From NCBI GenBank assembly GCA_017624675.1, contig JAGAMO010000006.1, positions 21,413 through 85,412 on the forward strand: a stretch of DNA of 64,000 nt, read 5' to 3'. A model generated the notes under the pieces. That model was not told the origin of the DNA. It ran no database searches and saw only the letters and a list, made by a program, of their open reading frames with translations. Positions 28,111 through 45,872 of the stretch are shown here, piece by piece. A program made the translations under genes and the position numbers. Source of the DNA: Clostridia bacterium (GTDB lineage Bacteria; Bacillota; Clostridia; Oscillospirales; Acutalibacteraceae). Each line of letters begins with the position of its first letter. Within the stretch, counting starts at the first letter, position 1.

Positions 28111-28310
28111 ATAATGGTTATGATTAGTCGAAACACTTCTGTTTCGACACAAAATCTTTGATTTTGTAACAAATTTCTCTTGAAATTTGTCCATATCCAT
28201 TGCAATGAGTGTTGTGCAAAATTAAATTGCAAAAATTAATTTTGCCAAAGCTACTTAAAAAGTGGCTTGTCGAAGCGCTTTTCAGCGTTTCGACAAACAA
28301 CATTCATTAT
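28111..28310. repeat. 200-bp multi-hairpin dispersed repeat, copy 1
   Basis: This copy and the one at 62388-62587 are both exactly 200 bp and differ at about 18 positions by my count. The element is a chain of hairpins: GTCGAAAC/GTTTCGAC, ACAAAATC/GATTTTGT, ACAAATTTC/GAAATTTGT, GCAAAATTAA/TTAATTTTGC, AAGCTACTT/AAGTGGCTT and a last one ending AGCGTTTCGAC. The ends ATAATG and CATTAT are inverted, and GTCGAAAC near the left end can also pair with GTTTCGAC near the right end. It resembles a MITE-like non-autonomous element or structured RNA. Its right end supplies the stop codon of the minus-strand gene at 28307. No open frame is visible. Confidence 0.85.
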
Positions 28311-28741
28311 AAGAACTTTCTTAAATCAATGGCTAATTGGGCTTCTAAGTTTATTAGTCTTTTGGTAATATCCTTTGATTTTTCATCTGCGGCGGCATAC
28401 TGATTAAGATATTTATTAAGAGATTTCACACCCATATTACAGCCATCAGTCATAAGGTCGGCTACTGTATTATCGGTTTCGTTCATCTGAAGTTTAACTT
28501 CGGTCTTGATTTTAGCCATCTTTTCAGCCATAAAATTGGGGTCTTTGCCCTCATCCTCGTATTTTCCAAGTAATTCTTGAAGCTCCTTGTCAAGCTTATC
28601 GTGTTCGTCCTTACAAGCGTTGAGAAGCTTAACCAACTCCTCACTTTCTACTCGGTCTAAAACATCGCTTATGGACTTAACGCCCATTTTAATACCTGCG
28701 TCGCATTCTCTTAAAAGTCTTATTGTATCTTTTTCTATCAT
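28307..28741 (-). CDS. Small helical protein of unknown function
   Basis: The 144-residue protein is predicted to be almost all helix, with a repeated pattern: DAGIKMGVKSISDVLDRV near the N-terminus and DGCNMGVKSLNKYLNQYA in the second half look like two copies of the same helix, as in four-helix bundles of the ferritin-like/DUF2383 kind. No metal-ligand pattern is clear to me. The start has GGGGAG upstream, and that site can pair with an upstream CTCCCC. Its stop codon lies in the last bases of the 200-bp repeat, so the original C-terminus may have been changed by the insertion. I do not recognise a function. Confidence 0.75.
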   Translation of the reverse strand: MIEKDTIRLLRECDAGIKMGVKSISDVLDRVESEELVKLLNACKDEHDKLDKELQELLGKYEDEGKDPNFMAEKMAKIKTEVKLQMNETDNTVADLMTDGCNMGVKSLNKYLNQYAAADEKSKDITKRLINLEAQLAIDLRKFL

Positions 28742-28747
28742 AAAAAC

Positions 28748-28784
28748 ACTCCCCTTTTTTGTAGTATATACATTAAAGGGGAGT
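28748..28784 (-). promoter_or_regulatory. Inverted repeat that can mask the ribosome binding site of the 28307-28741 gene
   Basis: ACTCCCCTTT (28748-28757) and AAAGGGGAGT (28775-28784) are 10-bp complements. On the minus strand the second arm to be transcribed holds AAGGGGAG, the ribosome binding site 7 nt before the ATG at 28741. The mRNA could fold so that translation is reduced. Confidence 0.5.
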
Positions 28785-28797
28785 TAATTCATAGGTT

Positions 28798-29517
28798 TTA
28801 ATTAAACTTAATATCGCCTGTTTCGGTTTCTATTTCACATCTGCCGCCTCTTATACTTTTGGGAACATCAATATCACCCGTATCGGTTTTAGTTATGAAC
28901 ACTTTTGGGGTCAGAAAACTACCCGTCACATCGCCCGTATCGGTTTTAACAAAAATTTCTTTAGCATCGCATTTATCGAGCTTAACATCTCCTGTATCGG
29001 TTTTGATTTTAATAATATCAGCCGATGCCGAGTTCTTAATGTCTCCTGTGCTAATAGAAATATCAATATTTTTAAATTTAAAATCTTTAGGTATGTTAAT
29101 ATCTCCCGTGCTTTCTCTAATTGAAAGATTTTTATATTCGTTTTCGGGCAGATATACAATAATATCAGACTTTCCCATAGTTATACCGACATATTCATAC
29201 CAATTTCTTTCATCAATTTGTTTAATTGTAAGGGTTTCATCTACAACTTCGGCAGAATAATATACATTTTCCTCTTCGTAGCAAACCACTTCGCATTTAC
29301 CGTTTTGAGACAAAGCAAAAACTATATCTTCTGTATCAGTTTCTATTAATATGTTACTGAATTTATCATCTATCTGCCTATTGGTTTTATATTTTACCGT
29401 TGTTGCAAGTTTAGTAAAATCCCAATTATTTATTGTCATTGCAGAAGCAAAGATTGAAGCTCCAATAACAATAAAGAAGGTTGCAATAATGAGCCATATT
29501 TTCGTTTTTTTAGACAT
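28798..29517 (-). CDS. DUF4097 family beta-strand repeat protein
   Basis: The 239-residue protein has one N-terminal membrane segment (IWLIIATFFIVIGASIFASA) and then a right-handed beta-solenoid-like repeat with the recurring motif (S/T)TGD(I/V): STGDINIPK, STGDIKNSA, DTGDVKLDK, DTGDVTGSF, DTGDIDVPK and ETGDIKFN. This is the DUF4097 pattern. It is probably anchored in the membrane with the repeats outside. It is the last gene of a PadR-DUF1700-DUF4097 operon; the module's function is not established. Confidence 0.88.
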   Translation of the reverse strand: MSKKTKIWLIIATFFIVIGASIFASAMTINNWDFTKLATTVKYKTNRQIDDKFSNILIETDTEDIVFALSQNGKCEVVCYEEENVYYSAEVVDETLTIKQIDERNWYEYVGITMGKSDIIVYLPENEYKNLSIRESTGDINIPKDFKFKNIDISISTGDIKNSASADIIKIKTDTGDVKLDKCDAKEIFVKTDTGDVTGSFLTPKVFITKTDTGDIDVPKSIRGGRCEIETETGDIKFN

Positions 29518-30125
29518 TACTCTTCCTCCTTTTTAATAAAAGATTTTTTAATACTAAACACAATCTTTTTGGTAAATAATAAAATGCCTTTTGTGGCAAC
29601 TTTACAACTATAGAAAAACAATATAGAAAGTCCTATACAAACAAGCCCTGCAGATATTAAAGCCACACCTGTAAGTCCATTTTTATAAATACTGAGTATA
29701 ATACCGCCTATAATTCCACCAAAAGCAGAGGCAATAATTGCCGAAAAGCAGGCCCAAAGTGAAACAATTACTGCCCACAAGGAAACATAAAGAGAAAAGA
29801 TTACGGCAAATATTGCAATTAAAATTGCTAACCACAAAGGCGCACCCAAAACCAATAGCACAATTTCCCACGCCTTAATGCGTCTTTTGGGTTTTATTTT
29901 TTCCTTTGCAATTTTAGTGAGTGGAATATCTGCTACAATCTGCTCAACTATTTCATCAACGGTTCCAATTTCTGCAATAGCTTCCGCCTCTGAAAGTCCA
30001 TCTTCAATGCGGTCCTCTATCATTTCGTTATAAAAATTAAGACGCTCTTCAATTTCGTTTTGGGGAAGTCCTGATAATTTATTATGTAAAGACAAAAGAA
30101 ACTGCAATTCAGTCATTTCCCTCAT
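29517..30125 (-). CDS. DUF1700 (HAAS) membrane protein
   Basis: The 202-residue protein starts with the cytoplasmic HAAS-type helical domain (LHNKLSGLPQNEIEERLNFY, then the segment EDGLSEAEAIAEIGTVDEIV; residues 9-60) and continues with three or four membrane segments and a basic C-terminus. It is typically paired with a PadR regulator, as here. The PadR gene overlaps its start by 17 nt, and its stop shares bases with the next start. Confidence 0.88.
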   Translation of the reverse strand: MREMTELQFLLSLHNKLSGLPQNEIEERLNFYNEMIEDRIEDGLSEAEAIAEIGTVDEIVEQIVADIPLTKIAKEKIKPKRRIKAWEIVLLVLGAPLWLAILIAIFAVIFSLYVSLWAVIVSLWACFSAIIASAFGGIIGGIILSIYKNGLTGVALISAGLVCIGLSILFFYSCKVATKGILLFTKKIVFSIKKSFIKKEEE

Positions 30126-30429
30126 CCTCCTTGGTTACAAATTTATATATTGAAAGAATTTCTCGCCATTCGTTTTTGAAATCCTCTATTCGCTTTAATC
30201 CGTGTTCGGTTATATGGTAGTATTTACGAAGTCGGCCACCGTGCTCCGCAGTTCTGACAGTCAGCATATTTGCACTTTCCAAGCGTTTTAAAATTGTATA
30301 TAAGGTTGATTCGGACAACTCAATATATGGCTTCATATCTTTTATAATCTTATAGCCATAGGAATCTTCGTTTTTGATAGATGCCAAAACGCATACATCC
30401 AAAAGACCTCTTTTTAATTGAATATCCAT
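30109..30429 (-). CDS. PadR family transcriptional regulator
   Basis: The 106-residue protein is a PadR winged-helix regulator: QLKRGLLDVCVLASIKNEDS, then YGYKIIKDM, SESTLYTILKRLESANML (recognition helix) and GGRLRKYYHITEHG (wing). The open frame starts at 30525, but the ATG at 30429 has AAAGGAGG and gives the normal PadR start. It heads the operon with DUF1700 and DUF4097. Its promoter carries a dyad at 30449-30471 that fits PadR sites, so autorepression is likely. Confidence 0.94.
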   Translation of the reverse strand: MDIQLKRGLLDVCVLASIKNEDSYGYKIIKDMKPYIELSESTLYTILKRLESANMLTVRTAEHGGRLRKYYHITEHGLKRIEDFKNEWREILSIYKFVTKEDEGND

Positions 30430-30448
30430 ACAATACCTCCTTTTACAT

Positions 30449-30471
30449 AATACATCGTAACACGAAGTATT
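30449..30471 (-). promoter_or_regulatory. Dyad operator over the -10 of the PadR operon
   Basis: A 23-bp dyad with arms AATACTTCGT and ACGATGTATT (one mismatch) and a 3-nt centre. Its outer ATAC/GTAT fits the ATAC...GTAT layout of PadR operators. It covers the -10 box. Confidence 0.65.
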
Positions 30472-30482
30472 GTTTTTGTCAA
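30454..30482 (-). promoter_or_regulatory. Promoter of the PadR-DUF1700-DUF4097 operon
   Basis: Minus strand TTGACA (30477-30482), 17 nt, TACGAT (30454-30459), about 18 nt before the predicted transcript start region and 25 nt before the PadR ATG. Confidence 0.7.
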
Positions 30483-30517
30483 GTCCTATAAATTCGTCTG
30501 CGAAGCAGACACCGAAG

Positions 30518-30610
30518 TTCTTCACTATTCACTATTACTTATTATTTCCAAAAATCCTCTTTATAAAAGCGTAGAGAACAGTGAAAAGTGAAGAGTGAAC
30601 AGTGAAAAAG
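30518..30610. repeat. Degenerate TTCACT/AGTGAA inverted repeat, copy near tRNA-Gln
   Basis: A block of TTCACTATTCACTATTACTT is followed about 50 bp later by runs of AGTGAA, ending in CAGTGAAAAAGTAAAATCC at the tRNA-Gln terminator. A very similar sequence, on the other strand, follows the tRNA-Ser terminator at 40003-40080. It looks like a small dispersed repeat that lies against tRNA terminators. Confidence 0.5.
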
Positions 30611-31019: not shown

Positions 31020-31034
31020 GCAACCAGAGGTTGC
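31020..31034 (+). other. Hairpin upstream of the HTH-GlmM gene
   Basis: GCAACC-AGA-GGTTGC is the clearest dyad in the AT-rich 240-bp gap before the HTH-GlmM fusion. It lies about 105 bp before the ATG and upstream of possible promoter elements (TTGTAT and TATTAT 17 nt apart near 31058-31086), so it may be an operator. The rest of the gap shows nothing else I can name. Confidence 0.35.
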
Positions 31035-31138
31035 GAAAAATTCAATGTTTTGTTGCTTGTATTATTGCTAAATATAATGTATTATTATATTTGTGATTGA
31101 ATATATTACAAACGAATCCACTTCAAGGAGGACACAAT

Positions 31139-32761
31139 ATGACAATCGGCGAAAAAATCACTCAACTTAGAACTGCATTGGATATCTCTCAGGAAACCCT
31201 AGCAGATAAGCTTTCGGTTTCCCGTCAATCTGTTTCCAAATGGGAAATGGACCAAGCTCAACCTCAGATTGATAAAATTCTCCAGTTATGCGAGATTTTT
31301 AACATCACTGCAGATGAGCTTATATCTGATAAAATTTCAATCAACCCCACCCCCGCAGGTGCGCCTGTTAAAAATAAATATTTTGGTACTGACGGTTTCA
31401 GAGGCGAAGCTAACCTCAACCTTACTTCTATGCACGCATATAAAGTAGGCAGATTTTTAGGTTGGTATTATTCCTCAAAACTTTCAGGCTGTGCTTCATC
31501 GGGCTACCGTCCCAAAATTGTTATCGGTAAAGACACCCGCCGCTCAAGTTATATGCTTGAATATTCCATCGTTGCAGGTATTACCGCTTCGGGTGCTGAC
31601 GCTTATATGCTTCACGTAACCACTACCCCCAGCGTTTCTTATGTTACCCGTCAGGATGAATTTGACTGCGGTATTATGATTACTGCATCTCACAATCCTT
31701 TTTATGATAACGGAATTAAGGTTATAAACAAATACGGTGAAAAGCTCGACGATGAGACCACTGCTTTAATCGAAGCATATATTGACGGTAACCTTTCCGC
31801 TTTAGGTGTTAAGGGCGAAGACCTCCCCTTAGCTCACAGAGAGCGCATCGGCGAAATTGTTGATTACTCAGCAGGCAGAAACAGATATGTAGGTTACCTC
31901 ATTTCTGTTGCATCTAACTCATACAAAAAACTCCGTATCGGTCTTGACTGTGCTAACGGTGCTTCTTGGATGATTGCAAAATCTGTTTTTGACGCTCTCG
32001 GCGCTCAGACAGTTATTATTGGAAACGAGCCTAACGGACTTAATGTTAACAACGGCTGCGGCTCAACACATATGGAAAATCTCTGCAATTTAGTTAAAGA
32101 GCAACACCTTGATGTCGGCTTTGCTTTTGACGGTGATGCTGACCGCTGTATTGCTGTTGACGAAAACGGAAATATTATTGACGGCGACGCTATGATGTAT
32201 ATCTTAGCAAACCGCTTAAAATCTCGCGGAATGTTAAACGGCAACACAGTTGTTGCAACAGTTATGTCTAACAGCGGCTTCTTTGCTTCACTTAAGAAGC
32301 TAGGCATTGAGTGTGACCAAACCAAGGTCGGCGACCGCTTTGTATATGAATCAATGCAAAACAATAACTTTAGTCTCGGCGGTGAGCAGTCGGGTCATAT
32401 TATCCTTAAAAAATACGCCACCACAGGCGACGGTATCTTAACCGCTATTATGTTGGCTGAGGAAATGTGCGACCGCAAGATGTCTTTAGCTAAGCTTTCC
32501 GAAAACCTTATGCTTTATCCTCAACATCTCATTAACCTTAGAGTTAAGAGCAAGGCGGATGTTATGAACGATGCCGAAGTTTTAGCTGCTAAAGAAGAGG
32601 TTAACAAGCTAATCGACGGAAATGGCAGAGCGCTTCTTAGAGAAAGCGGAACAGAGCCGGTTATCCGTATTATGATTGAAGCTGAAACTAACGAGCTTTG
32701 CGCCCAATACGCTGAAATGATTGCAAAAGTTATTAAGGAAAGAGGTCATTTGAGTGAATAA
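31139..32761 (+). CDS. glmM: Phosphoglucosamine mutase with fused N-terminal XRE/Cro-type HTH domain
   Basis: GlmM converts glucosamine 6-phosphate to glucosamine 1-phosphate for UDP-GlcNAc. The 540-residue protein first has a complete Cro/C1-type helix-turn-helix (residues 1-64: ITQLRTALDISQETLADKLS, then VSRQSVSKWEMDQAQPQIDK), a short linker with PTPAGAPVKN, and then a whole GlmM: KYFGTDGFRGEANLNLT, the phosphoserine loop TASHNP with Ser184, the metal loop FDGDADRC near residue 331, and RESGTEPVIRIMIEA for phosphate binding. Normal GlmM is about 445-450 residues without an HTH. GGAGG before the ATG at 31139 fixes the start at the HTH, so this is a real in-frame fusion. It overlaps the next gene by 8 nt. 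Confidence 0.93.
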   Translation: MTIGEKITQLRTALDISQETLADKLSVSRQSVSKWEMDQAQPQIDKILQLCEIFNITADELISDKISINPTPAGAPVKNKYFGTDGFRGEANLNLTSMHAYKVGRFLGWYYSSKLSGCASSGYRPKIVIGKDTRRSSYMLEYSIVAGITASGADAYMLHVTTTPSVSYVTRQDEFDCGIMITASHNPFYDNGIKVINKYGEKLDDETTALIEAYIDGNLSALGVKGEDLPLAHRERIGEIVDYSAGRNRYVGYLISVASNSYKKLRIGLDCANGASWMIAKSVFDALGAQTVIIGNEPNGLNVNNGCGSTHMENLCNLVKEQHLDVGFAFDGDADRCIAVDENGNIIDGDAMMYILANRLKSRGMLNGNTVVATVMSNSGFFASLKKLGIECDQTKVGDRFVYESMQNNNFSLGGEQSGHIILKKYATTGDGILTAIMLAEEMCDRKMSLAKLSENLMLYPQHLINLRVKSKADVMNDAEVLAAKEEVNKLIDGNGRALLRESGTEPVIRIMIEAETNELCAQYAEMIAKVIKERGHLSE

Positions 32762-33425
32762 GTTAGTTAAAACCTGTGAACTATATGACTGTCAAGTTCC
32801 TTATTTAAAAGATTTTTTCAATTCTTTTGAATATCCTTGGGAGATGCTTCCCAAAATCAAAGACCTTATCGCTTCCCTATTGGAAAGCGGAATTGAAGGC
32901 TTCACCGAGCTTAAAGAGGGTGTGCTTGTAGGCAGAAACGTTACCATTGCTCCTACAGCTACTATTGAAGCCCCAGCTATAATCGGACACGATACAGTAA
33001 TTCGTCCCGGTGCTTATATTAGAGGCAACCTTATCACAGGAAGCGGTTGTGTTATCGGCAATTCATCTGAATACAAAAATGCTATTTTGCTTGATAACGT
33101 TCAAACACCTCATTACAATTATATCGGCGATTCTATTTTAGGTAACCGCGCCCACACAGGTGCAGGTACCGTTTGCTCCAACCTTAAATCTGACGGTAAA
33201 AATGTTGTTATCCGCGGCGACAAGGATTATGAAACAGGTCTTCGTAAAATTGGCGGAATTTTAGCCGACGGTGCGGATGTTGGTTGCGGATGCGTTATTA
33301 ATCCAGGTACTGTAATAGGCAAAAAAACTTCTGTTTATCCATTAACCATGCTCAGAGGAGTTTACCCCGCTAACTGCATTGTTAAATCCACAAAAGAGTA
33401 TGTTTTAAGAAAGGAAAATTTTTAA
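32754..33425 (+). CDS. Left-handed beta-helix acyl/sugar transferase, GlmU C-terminal-like
   Basis: The 223-residue protein is mostly hexapeptide repeats of a left-handed beta-helix (about residues 60-205: VGRNVTIAPTATIEAPAIIG, HDTVIRPGAYIRGNLITGSG, VIGNSSEYKNAIL) with NYIGDSILGNRAHTGAGTVC and SNLKSDGK in the middle, which resembles the acetyltransferase half of GlmU (the YxGDxxxGxxxNxGAG block). It lacks the GlmU pyrophosphorylase domain. Lying after GlmM, it is probably the glucosamine-1-phosphate N-acetyltransferase or a related activity. It starts at GTG inside the end of the glmM gene. Confidence 0.78.
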   Translation: MNKLVKTCELYDCQVPYLKDFFNSFEYPWEMLPKIKDLIASLLESGIEGFTELKEGVLVGRNVTIAPTATIEAPAIIGHDTVIRPGAYIRGNLITGSGCVIGNSSEYKNAILLDNVQTPHYNYIGDSILGNRAHTGAGTVCSNLKSDGKNVVIRGDKDYETGLRKIGGILADGADVGCGCVINPGTVIGKKTSVYPLTMLRGVYPANCIVKSTKEYVLRKENF

Positions 33426-34135
33426 TGAAATTCATCACTGTTAAAACCTATGAAGAGTTAAGTGAGAAAGCTGCTGACATTATCGCTTCTCAAATCATTG
33501 TTAAGCCCAACTGTGTGTTAGGTTTGGCTACAGGCTCCTCACCTGTTGGCACTTATAAAAGACTTATCAAGGACAACGAGAACGGAAAAATTGATTTTTC
33601 AACCGTTACAAGTGTTAACCTTGACGAGTATGTTGGTCTTGATGTTACAAACGACCAAAGCTATCGTTACTTTATGAATGACAATTTCTTTAATCATGTT
33701 AACATTGATAAATCCAAGACCTTTGTTCCCAACGGTTGTGCCGCTGATTTAAAAGCAGAGGGCGAAGCTTATGACAAGATGATTAAAGATTTAGGCGGTA
33801 TTGATTTACAGCTTTTAGGTATTGGACTTGACGGTCATATTGGTTTCAATGAACCTGATTCTTGCTTTGTTGGTCCCACCCACGAAGTAACTCTTGACGA
33901 GTCTACCATCAAGGCAAACGCTCGTTTCTTTGCTAATGAGGACGAAGTTCCAAAGACCGCTATCACAATGGGTATGATGTCTATTATGCAAGCAAGAAAG
34001 ATTCTTTTGGTTGCTAACGGTGCTGCTAAAAAGGAAATTATTGAAAAATCCTTCTTTGGCCCCATCACCCCCGAAGTTCCCGCTTCGATTCTTCAGTTAC
34101 ACCCCGATGTAACCGTAATTTTCAGTGAAAACTAA
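33425..34135 (+). CDS. nagB: Glucosamine-6-phosphate deaminase
   Basis: NagB interconverts glucosamine 6-phosphate and fructose 6-phosphate plus ammonia. The 236-residue protein has GLATGSSPVGTYKRLI (phosphate loop), VNLDEYVGLDVTNDQSYRYF, LLGIGLDGHIGFNEPDS (catalytic Asp and His of the LDGHIGFNEP motif) and ITMGMMSIMQARKILLVANG. It is close to the short Firmicute form. It begins at the last base of the preceding stop codon, so the three amino-sugar genes form one operon. Confidence 0.95.
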   Translation: MKFITVKTYEELSEKAADIIASQIIVKPNCVLGLATGSSPVGTYKRLIKDNENGKIDFSTVTSVNLDEYVGLDVTNDQSYRYFMNDNFFNHVNIDKSKTFVPNGCAADLKAEGEAYDKMIKDLGGIDLQLLGIGLDGHIGFNEPDSCFVGPTHEVTLDESTIKANARFFANEDEVPKTAITMGMMSIMQARKILLVANGAAKKEIIEKSFFGPITPEVPASILQLHPDVTVIFSEN

Positions 34136-34145
34136 AAACTTCAAA

Positions 34146-34186
34146 AAAAGCTGTTTGATTTAAGGTCAAACAGCTTTATTTTTATT
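34146..34186 (+). terminator. Terminator after nagB
   Basis: AAAGCTGTTTGA and TCAAACAGCTTT pair, followed by ATTTTTATT. Confidence 0.85.
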
Positions 34187-45709: not shown

Positions 45710-45726
45710 AAGTATCGTAAATTTGA

Positions 45727-45834
45727 TGTTCTTTGCGACTGACGGTAAGTGCAAAAAACCGGTGGTTTATTTGCACATTTAAGTGGAGCTCACCACGTGG
45801 AACAAAGAACCTTTTGCCGACCGTCTGGGCTCAC
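45727..45834 (+). ncRNA. ZTP (pfl) riboswitch
   Basis: The leader carries the blocks of the pfl motif: GCGACTGACGG at the 5' end, a variable stem (GTGCAAA...TTTGCAC), GGAGCTCACCACGTGGAACA in the middle and the conserved 3' element GCCGACCGTCTGGGC at 45816-45830. The class binds ZTP/ZMP, which builds up when 10-formyl-tetrahydrofolate is low, and turns on purine and one-carbon genes. Here it precedes purE and an operon with glyA and fhs, which fits. The 3' GGGC is shared with the terminator that follows, so ligand binding should prevent termination. Confidence 0.93.
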
Positions 45835-45872
45835 TAAACTGCTGTTTTCAGCGGTTGGGTGCGCCCTTTTTT
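45827..45872 (+). terminator. Riboswitch expression platform (terminator)
   Basis: GGGC-TCAC at 45827-45834 can pair with GTG-C-GCCC at 45859-45866 over an inner stem (TGCTG/CAGCG), followed by TTTTTT. The stem would take the 3' conserved GGGC away from the riboswitch. Confidence 0.8.

Follow-up and report, generated by a model that had tools for sequence, protein, structure and literature searches.

The window analyzed here, a 64,000-nucleotide stretch of a Clostridia bacterium genome (contig JAGAMO010000006.1), carries a gene that encodes a helix-turn-helix (HTH) DNA-binding domain fused to a complete phosphoglucosamine mutase (GlmM) at the head of an amino-sugar operon. We consider it likely that this protein, HTH-GlmM, acts as a bifunctional enzyme-repressor that controls amino-sugar supply, probably tuned by a sugar phosphate in its active site. 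The observations behind this reading are the fusion, no other GlmM found in the genome, the gene order, a conserved site at promoters that is tied to the HTH, and the missing glmS ribozyme. The genome of the window (G000) is a 1.58-Mb draft of 41 contigs that is 96.7% complete. G handles denote genomes and L handles denote loci of a contig collection; the two sets overlap (for example, G014/L046 and G018/L090) and are not independent.

The fusion open reading frame (ORF) begins with ATG, a start conserved in relatives. A Pfam HTH_3 match at residues 9-61 scored 48.3 bits (cut-off 23), and the PGM_PMM I-IV domains span residues 80-530. The TIGR01455 glmM profile scored 500.9 bits, above its equivalog cut-off of 447.55. 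The AlphaFold model, with a mean predicted local distance difference test score of 83.6, placed five helices within residues 3-62; a low-confidence linker follows, and the rest adopts a GlmM fold, for which B. subtilis GlmM (7ojr) was the first PDB match. The top fold matches were 43-46% identical. Both the HTH_3 score above the gathering cut-off and the five-helix fold place the N-terminal domain in the XRE (Cro/C1) family. The motifs TASHNP (starting at residue 182, hence Ser184), DGDADR (331), GEQSGH (415), and RESGTEP (501), which we take to be the phosphoserine, metal, sugar, and phosphate loops, were all intact. Residues S184, D331, D333, D335, R336, E416, and S418 were invariant in 26 aligned fused proteins. 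The original prediction of a complete GlmM behind a full HTH was thus borne out. No second GlmM was found in G000, where the next relatives share 29% and 26% identity; as the fusion is the only GlmM found there, it is predicted to have mutase activity on glucosamine-6-phosphate (GlcN-6-P).

From codon 41 up to the FGTDG motif, the gene in the window has no in-frame ATG, GTG, or TTG. Internal initiation there would therefore not skip the HTH, and a plain GlmM made in this way is unlikely. Among the fused loci, 32/56 have a start codon within 25 codons before the GlmM motif, an ATG in 9/56. Loss of recognition-helix residues in all relatives, proposed as grounds for rejecting the idea, did not occur: R29, Q30, S33, W35, and E36 were identical in 55/55 fused proteins compared. 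The median nonsynonymous divergence (dN; 225 pairs, synonymous sites near saturation) was 0.21 for the HTH, 0.16 for GlmM, and 0.68 for the linker, giving ratios to GlmM of 1.35 for the HTH and 4.4 for the linker. These values indicate that the HTH is under purifying selection and evolves nearly as slowly as GlmM.

The same fusion was sought in related genomes. Among the matches listed, it was present in at least 30 of 61 genomes of the genus and at least 20 of 200 of the family (one each in pieces on two contigs, G046 and G087), and in a phylum-wide draw of 398 genomes the single fused gene was the window's own. The recurrence across genus and family shows that the fusion is not a chance joining. 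Of the 80 best loci in the contig collection, 55 were fused, mostly titled Clostridia or Oscillospiraceae and many from the ruminant gut; 15 fused loci form one clade mostly titled Bacilli, Bacillales, or Erysipelotrichaceae (the Bacilli-like clade, L079-L100). A tree of the GlmM part alone (80 rows without L106, unrooted, without a canonical outgroup, bootstrap not settled) placed the fused genes in one group, inside which only L090 and L098 are without an HTH. The history of the fusion would involve two changes, most simply one gain and one loss. Some 35 bp ahead of the start codon, L090 and L098 have a 20-bp dyad in common, TTCGCATACTATTATGCGAA, perhaps the site of a successor regulator. 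G045 carries two HTH-glmM genes, on contigs C34 and C35, each with a one-mismatch site; contamination of 6% is reported for this genome.

Upstream regions were compared at 81 loci, namely L046-L125 and the window (56 fused, 25 unfused; L014-L045 left out). Fewer than 350 bp of upstream DNA were available at five of them (fused L068 and L094; unfused L109, L110, and L113), and the start of L106 is misplaced. The dyad GCAACC-AGA-GGTTGC named as a candidate site was present at 31020-31034 and proved to be conserved: GCAAC-N5-GTTGC, mostly in the form GCAACYNNNRGTTGC, occurred within 350 bp upstream of 41/56 fused and 0/25 unfused loci. The spacing was always 5, with none of the other spacings from 0 to 15 represented, and 100 shuffles gave a mean of 0.02 and a maximum of 1. 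This conserved dyad, tied to the HTH, is a candidate for the palindromic operator expected of an XRE regulator. Outside the Bacilli-like clade, 36/41 fused loci had the site, starting 66-142 bp before the ATG; of the five exceptions, two deviate by one mismatch, one by two, one by three (L105, whose recognition helix is changed), and the last has just 39 bp of upstream DNA. Within the Bacilli-like clade the site was found at 5/15 loci, L083-L086 and L088. As a separate observation, another dyad, GTAAA-N6-TTNAC, lies upstream in 14/15 loci of this clade (shuffle mean 0.10) and often overlaps a TTNACA -35-like box.

In the 30 fused genomes of the genus, the glmM site matched the consensus GCAACYNNNRGTTGC exactly in 21, with one mismatch in seven and with two in one (G001). 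All seven one-mismatch sites end in GTTGA, in several genomes because TTGACA runs through the site. At the nearest unfused glmM genes, 67-73% identical, the site was found at 0/6 distinct loci (L098; L090, the same as G018; and G002, G010, G032, and G056, four loci that the tree does not cover). Across 36 anchored fused loci including the window, the consensus order is the predicted operator O1, a degenerate second site O2 22 bp further on, and TTGATA-17-TATAAT; TCAA and GTTGS recur at the O2 offset. The likely promoter of the operon in the window was not listed by a simple promoter scan, and an alternative (TTGTTG at 31050-31055, TATAAT at 31073-31078) overlaps it. G000 has two further exact GCAAC-N5-GTTGC sites, both within ORFs, which were treated as chance, as were seven of eight one-mismatch consensus sites, also inside ORFs; a reversed control pattern gave four. 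The remaining one precedes an XRE gene. At L238:2623-3732, in the genome of the window, an XRE-TPR protein of 370 amino acids has a one-mismatch site 95 bp upstream.

A position weight matrix built from the glmM sites, with 1% and 5% thresholds set by shuffles, was applied to other amino-sugar genes. Upstream of nagB, sites passed the 1% threshold in 5/17 fused genomes and at 0/17 unfused loci (16 genomes). For glmS, the figures were 6/11 fused against 1/14 unfused loci at 5%, and 2/11 against 0/14 at 1%. A glmS match in G059 (7.3 bits) is probably due to chance. nagA was not retained as a target: the 5% threshold was passed in 2/25 fused genomes, hardly above the 1.25 expected, with an exact site in G044. 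Genomes in which no GlmM was found, excluded from these site counts, varied, with sites at both glmS and nagB in G028 (94% complete), at glmS in G013, at neither in G017, and none at nagB in G036. Several of the sites in relatives are tandem, 24-25 bp apart. By eye, glmM sites run into TTGACA in G045, G040, G039, G046, and G001, glmS sites lie on or against the -35, and nagB sites follow directly after the -10 in G039, G040, G001, G045, and G028, while glmM of G004, G044, and G059 and nagB of G042 resemble the upstream arrangement of the window. This placement suggests mainly a repressor geometry. The proposal that the fused HTH controls its own operon is well supported by comparison, as the predicted operator is conserved, is gone where the HTH was lost, and recurs at amino-sugar genes in some relatives.

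A contrast that the original prediction did not contain concerns the glmS ribozyme (RF00234). It lies upstream of glmS in 12/12 genomes whose GlmM is canonical (a fragment in G050) and at 1/15 glmS loci of 14 fused genomes. The lone case comes from G059, whose second glmS copy, on a possibly foreign 5-kb contig, has the ribozyme. GlmS also occurs in a fifteenth fused genome, G046, which falls outside the count because of a contig end. The ribozyme was also absent from glmS in 3/3 genomes in which no GlmM was found. The enzyme with its operator and the GlcN-6-P-sensing ribozyme are almost mutually exclusive, although descent could explain part of this. HTH-GlmM apparently replaces the glmS ribozyme.

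The supply of GlcN-6-P was considered from the gene content. GlmS had no candidate in G000 (14/14 control genomes were positive), NagA had no match, and the only NagB is the operon copy. With neither GlmS nor NagA found, NagB may make GlcN-6-P, which is the simplest reading for G000; glucosamine import, or genes missing from the incomplete draft, may be alternatives. GlmS over the cut-off was absent from 15/30 fused genomes of the genus. Three of these 15 (G000, G005, and G014) also have no NagA match; the other 12 have one, so GlcN-6-P could come from N-acetylglucosamine (GlcNAc) there. In fused genomes with both glmS and nagB, joint control of the two would be odd unless both serve supply. 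GlmU over the cut-off was absent from G000, and a clear GlcNAc-1-phosphate (GlcNAc-1-P) uridylyltransferase was not found, though the acetyltransferase half is in the operon; in the UDPGP family search for the uridylyltransferase, control genomes were without a match too. A 292-amino-acid nucleotidyltransferase of G000, which to us looks like GalU, is 29% identical to one beside nagB in G004.

We propose the following mechanism. The GlmM part, the only one found in the cell, would convert GlcN-6-P to glucosamine-1-phosphate (GlcN-1-P), and the XRE-type HTH, presumably in the GlmM dimer, would bind GCAAC-N5-GTTGC at its own promoter and, in some relatives, sites at glmS and nagB. Comparison points to the HTH of GlmM as the binder, which when bound would repress transcription. 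The intact GlmM site, together with glmS genes that mostly lack the ribozyme in fused genomes, suggests that the active site may read glucosamine phosphates, and an amino-sugar phosphate held there would most likely tune DNA binding. Our guess is that it acts as co-repressor; whether repression sets in when the sugar phosphate is plentiful is close to an even bet. The supply of GlcN-6-P would thereby be matched to demand, elsewhere the job of the glmS ribozyme. The operon of the window would cover most of the route from fructose-6-phosphate (F6P) through GlcN-6-P (by reversed NagB) and GlcN-1-P to GlcNAc-1-P. A bolder version is possible, though we hold it with less than even confidence: HTH-GlmM would be a protein stand-in for the ribozyme, an essential enzyme of peptidoglycan-precursor synthesis that senses GlcN-6-P in its active site and represses its own operon, glmS, and nagB. 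The lineages concerned would have lost the ribozyme and, as in that of the window, also GlmS in favor of reversed NagB.

Several observations weigh against the enzyme-repressor reading. Canonical GlmM is also present in 3/20 fused family genomes (G087, G131, and G166), and G025 has a second, unfused copy beside the fusion. G047 is fused but without a recognisable site. In G000, the operon site is the sole exact GCAACYNNNRGTTGC match genome-wide, and in fused genomes 12/17 nagB and 23/25 nagA upstream regions are without a site at 5%. The carriers of glmS and nagB sites are few close kin, so these sites do not represent many independent events. Other XRE genes, among them those of HTH-ADP-ribosylglycohydrolases, have this site upstream as well, so a paralogue could be the binder. 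The ribozyme is absent in 2/2 genomes (G052 and G049) with a 55-56% identical unfused GlmM, so the contrast between ribozyme and fusion is confounded with descent. As to supply, NagB of Akkermansia, which is without GlmS, does not aminate F6P at physiological conditions according to the part of the report available, and this organism needs GlcNAc or N-acetylgalactosamine; the same part cites others for amination by NagB enzymes (PMC5902328). No direct precedent for reversed NagB was found in a search of open-licence literature.

An autoregulated enzyme without metabolite sensing, with repression of its own operon by the HTH simply scaling with GlmM levels, strikes us as rather unlikely. The site is conserved chiefly at the own promoter, and sites upstream of other XRE genes make autoregulation look usual for this XRE type, but the glmS and nagB sites in some relatives, the ribozyme mostly absent from fused genomes, and the retention of the HTH on a substrate-binding enzyme nearly clade-wide speak for more than autoregulation. 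That the HTH activates instead of repressing is quite improbable: the sites of another clade run into TTGACA at glmM and follow the -10 at nagB (by eye), and in L083-L086 the site lies 28-29 bp before the start codon, although the geometry in the clade of the window, with O1 centred near -65 and O2 near -43, resembles activator positions.

We give little credence to another XRE protein of the same specificity as the binder, with the HTH on GlmM a relic or serving location only. Purifying selection on the HTH with invariant recognition residues, and the 0/6 nearest unfused glmM loci with a site, argue for the fused domain; so do the four other HTH matches in G000, which are only 28-44% identical, the three inspected being without R29. 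The similar sites at other XRE genes would fit such a protein, as would G028, where glmS and nagB have sites and no GlmM was found. Finally, the window comes from a draft genome, which raises the question of an assembly artefact or of chance read-through joining two genes; the 55 additional fused records from other contigs, which mostly start with MTIGEKI or nearly so, and the fused genomes across the genus (a collection overlapping that of the 55 records) already refute this.

The enzyme-repressor reading has partial precedents. In trigger enzymes such as PutA, BirA, and NadR, one protein catalyses a reaction and controls transcription; we know of no trigger enzyme that is a phosphosugar mutase or an essential enzyme of peptidoglycan-precursor synthesis. 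For HTH-GlmM, the catalytic and the regulator halves are both predicted. Regulators of the RpiR, DeoR/SorC, and NagC/ROK families join an HTH to a fold resembling that of enzymes acting on sugar phosphates or sugars, their sensor domains being mostly non-catalytic, and to our knowledge none of these domains has the GlmM fold. BzdR has a DNA-binding domain of the Cro/C1 type. Judged from the available part of its description, it is the nearest published idea we met: an N-terminal DNA-binding domain is joined to a shikimate-kinase-like domain, and, as in HTH-GlmM, a linker connects the DNA-binding domain to an enzyme fold, which in BzdR binds the effector (PMC3602430). Loss of enzymatic activity is described there as essential (PMC3602430), whereas the loops of HTH-GlmM are intact and no other GlmM was found in G000. 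HTH-GlmM is therefore not a degenerate enzyme domain serving as sensor, as in the BzdR type.

Canonical GlmM (TIGR01455; B. subtilis 7ojr, S. aureus 6gyz) has the same four domains and catalytic loops but no HTH. B. subtilis has glmM within cdaA-cdaR-glmM-glmS, where a glmS ribozyme is present, and the ribozyme exerts negative control of GlcN-6-P supply, as far as the available part of the source describes (PMC6171935). Likewise negative control is proposed for HTH-GlmM, a protein in contrast to the RNA. HTH-ADP-ribosylglycohydrolases (L137:1587-3014 and L148:1586-3013) resemble HTH-GlmM in having HTH_3, an enzyme domain, and the same upstream site (GCAACYNNNRGTTGC, 85-86 bp upstream), but the enzyme is unrelated. 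HTH-enzyme fusions with such sites may occur more widely in this XRE class. No description of the HTH-GlmM build was found in titles and abstract openings of open-licence literature. If the proposal is true, a regulator arose by fusion of a DNA-binding domain with an essential cell-wall enzyme that still works, and a protein has naturally taken over the task of a famous ribozyme. The finding also suggests that NagB could serve as a GlcN-6-P synthase where bacteria lack GlmS. The carriers of the fusion are mostly gut-dwelling bacteria.

The features of the operon are listed in the table. Of the organization originally predicted, the lead position of HTH-GlmM and the presence of nagB held, while "GlmU-like" for the middle gene was too broad: its product matches only the C-terminal parts of GlmU profiles (TIGR03992 positions 208-391, 140 bits; full-length cut-off 292.1) and is an acetyltransferase half, not a two-half GlmU. 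The genes are tightly packed, with the acetyltransferase start at 32754 preceding the glmM stop at 32761 and nagB beginning on the last base of the acetyltransferase stop (33425). The stem behind nagB is the likely end of the operon; five terminator-like sites were found in the region against 3.0 expected from shuffles. Downstream of 55 fused loci, the acetyltransferase came next in 46, nagB lay within 1.6 kb in 30, and glmS in one; for 23 unfused loci, the numbers were two, zero, and two. These counts leave out two further loci with too little downstream DNA. In the genomes, glmS was found in the fused operon four times, directly after the fusion in G004, G023, and G044 and after the acetyltransferase in G048.

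Table. Features of the HTH-glmM operon in the window (positions are those of the window).
Feature	Position	Strand	Basis
Predicted operator O1, GCAACCAGAGGTTGC (consensus GCAACYNNNRGTTGC)	31020..31034	+	Motif conserved at fused loci
Degenerate second site O2 (TCAAT-N5-GTTGC), centre 22 bp from O1	31042..31056	+	Inference
Likely promoter: -35 TTGTAT (31057-31062), 17 bp, -10 TATTAT (31080-31085)	31057..31085	+	Consensus offset
Ribosome-binding site AGGAGG	31126..31131	+	Sequence
HTH-GlmM fusion, 540 aa: HTH 1-64, linker 65-79, GlmM 80-534	31139..32761	+	Pfam, TIGR, model, alignments
Left-handed beta-helix acetyltransferase, C-terminal GlmU half (predicted GlcN-1-P N-acetyltransferase)	32754..33425	+	TIGR03992
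nagB, GlcN-6-P deaminase	33425..34135	+	TIGR00502, 279.6 bits (cut-off 236.9)
Terminator-like 14-bp stem and T-rich tail after nagB	34147..34177	+	Longest stem among 5 sites

Elsewhere in the window, the minus strand at 28307-30525 encodes a PadR regulator, a HAAS-domain protein, and then a protein with repeated TGDI-like motifs, which has a weak DUF2383 match below the cut-off. A ZMP/ZTP riboswitch was detected at 45725-45837 with 49.5 bits.

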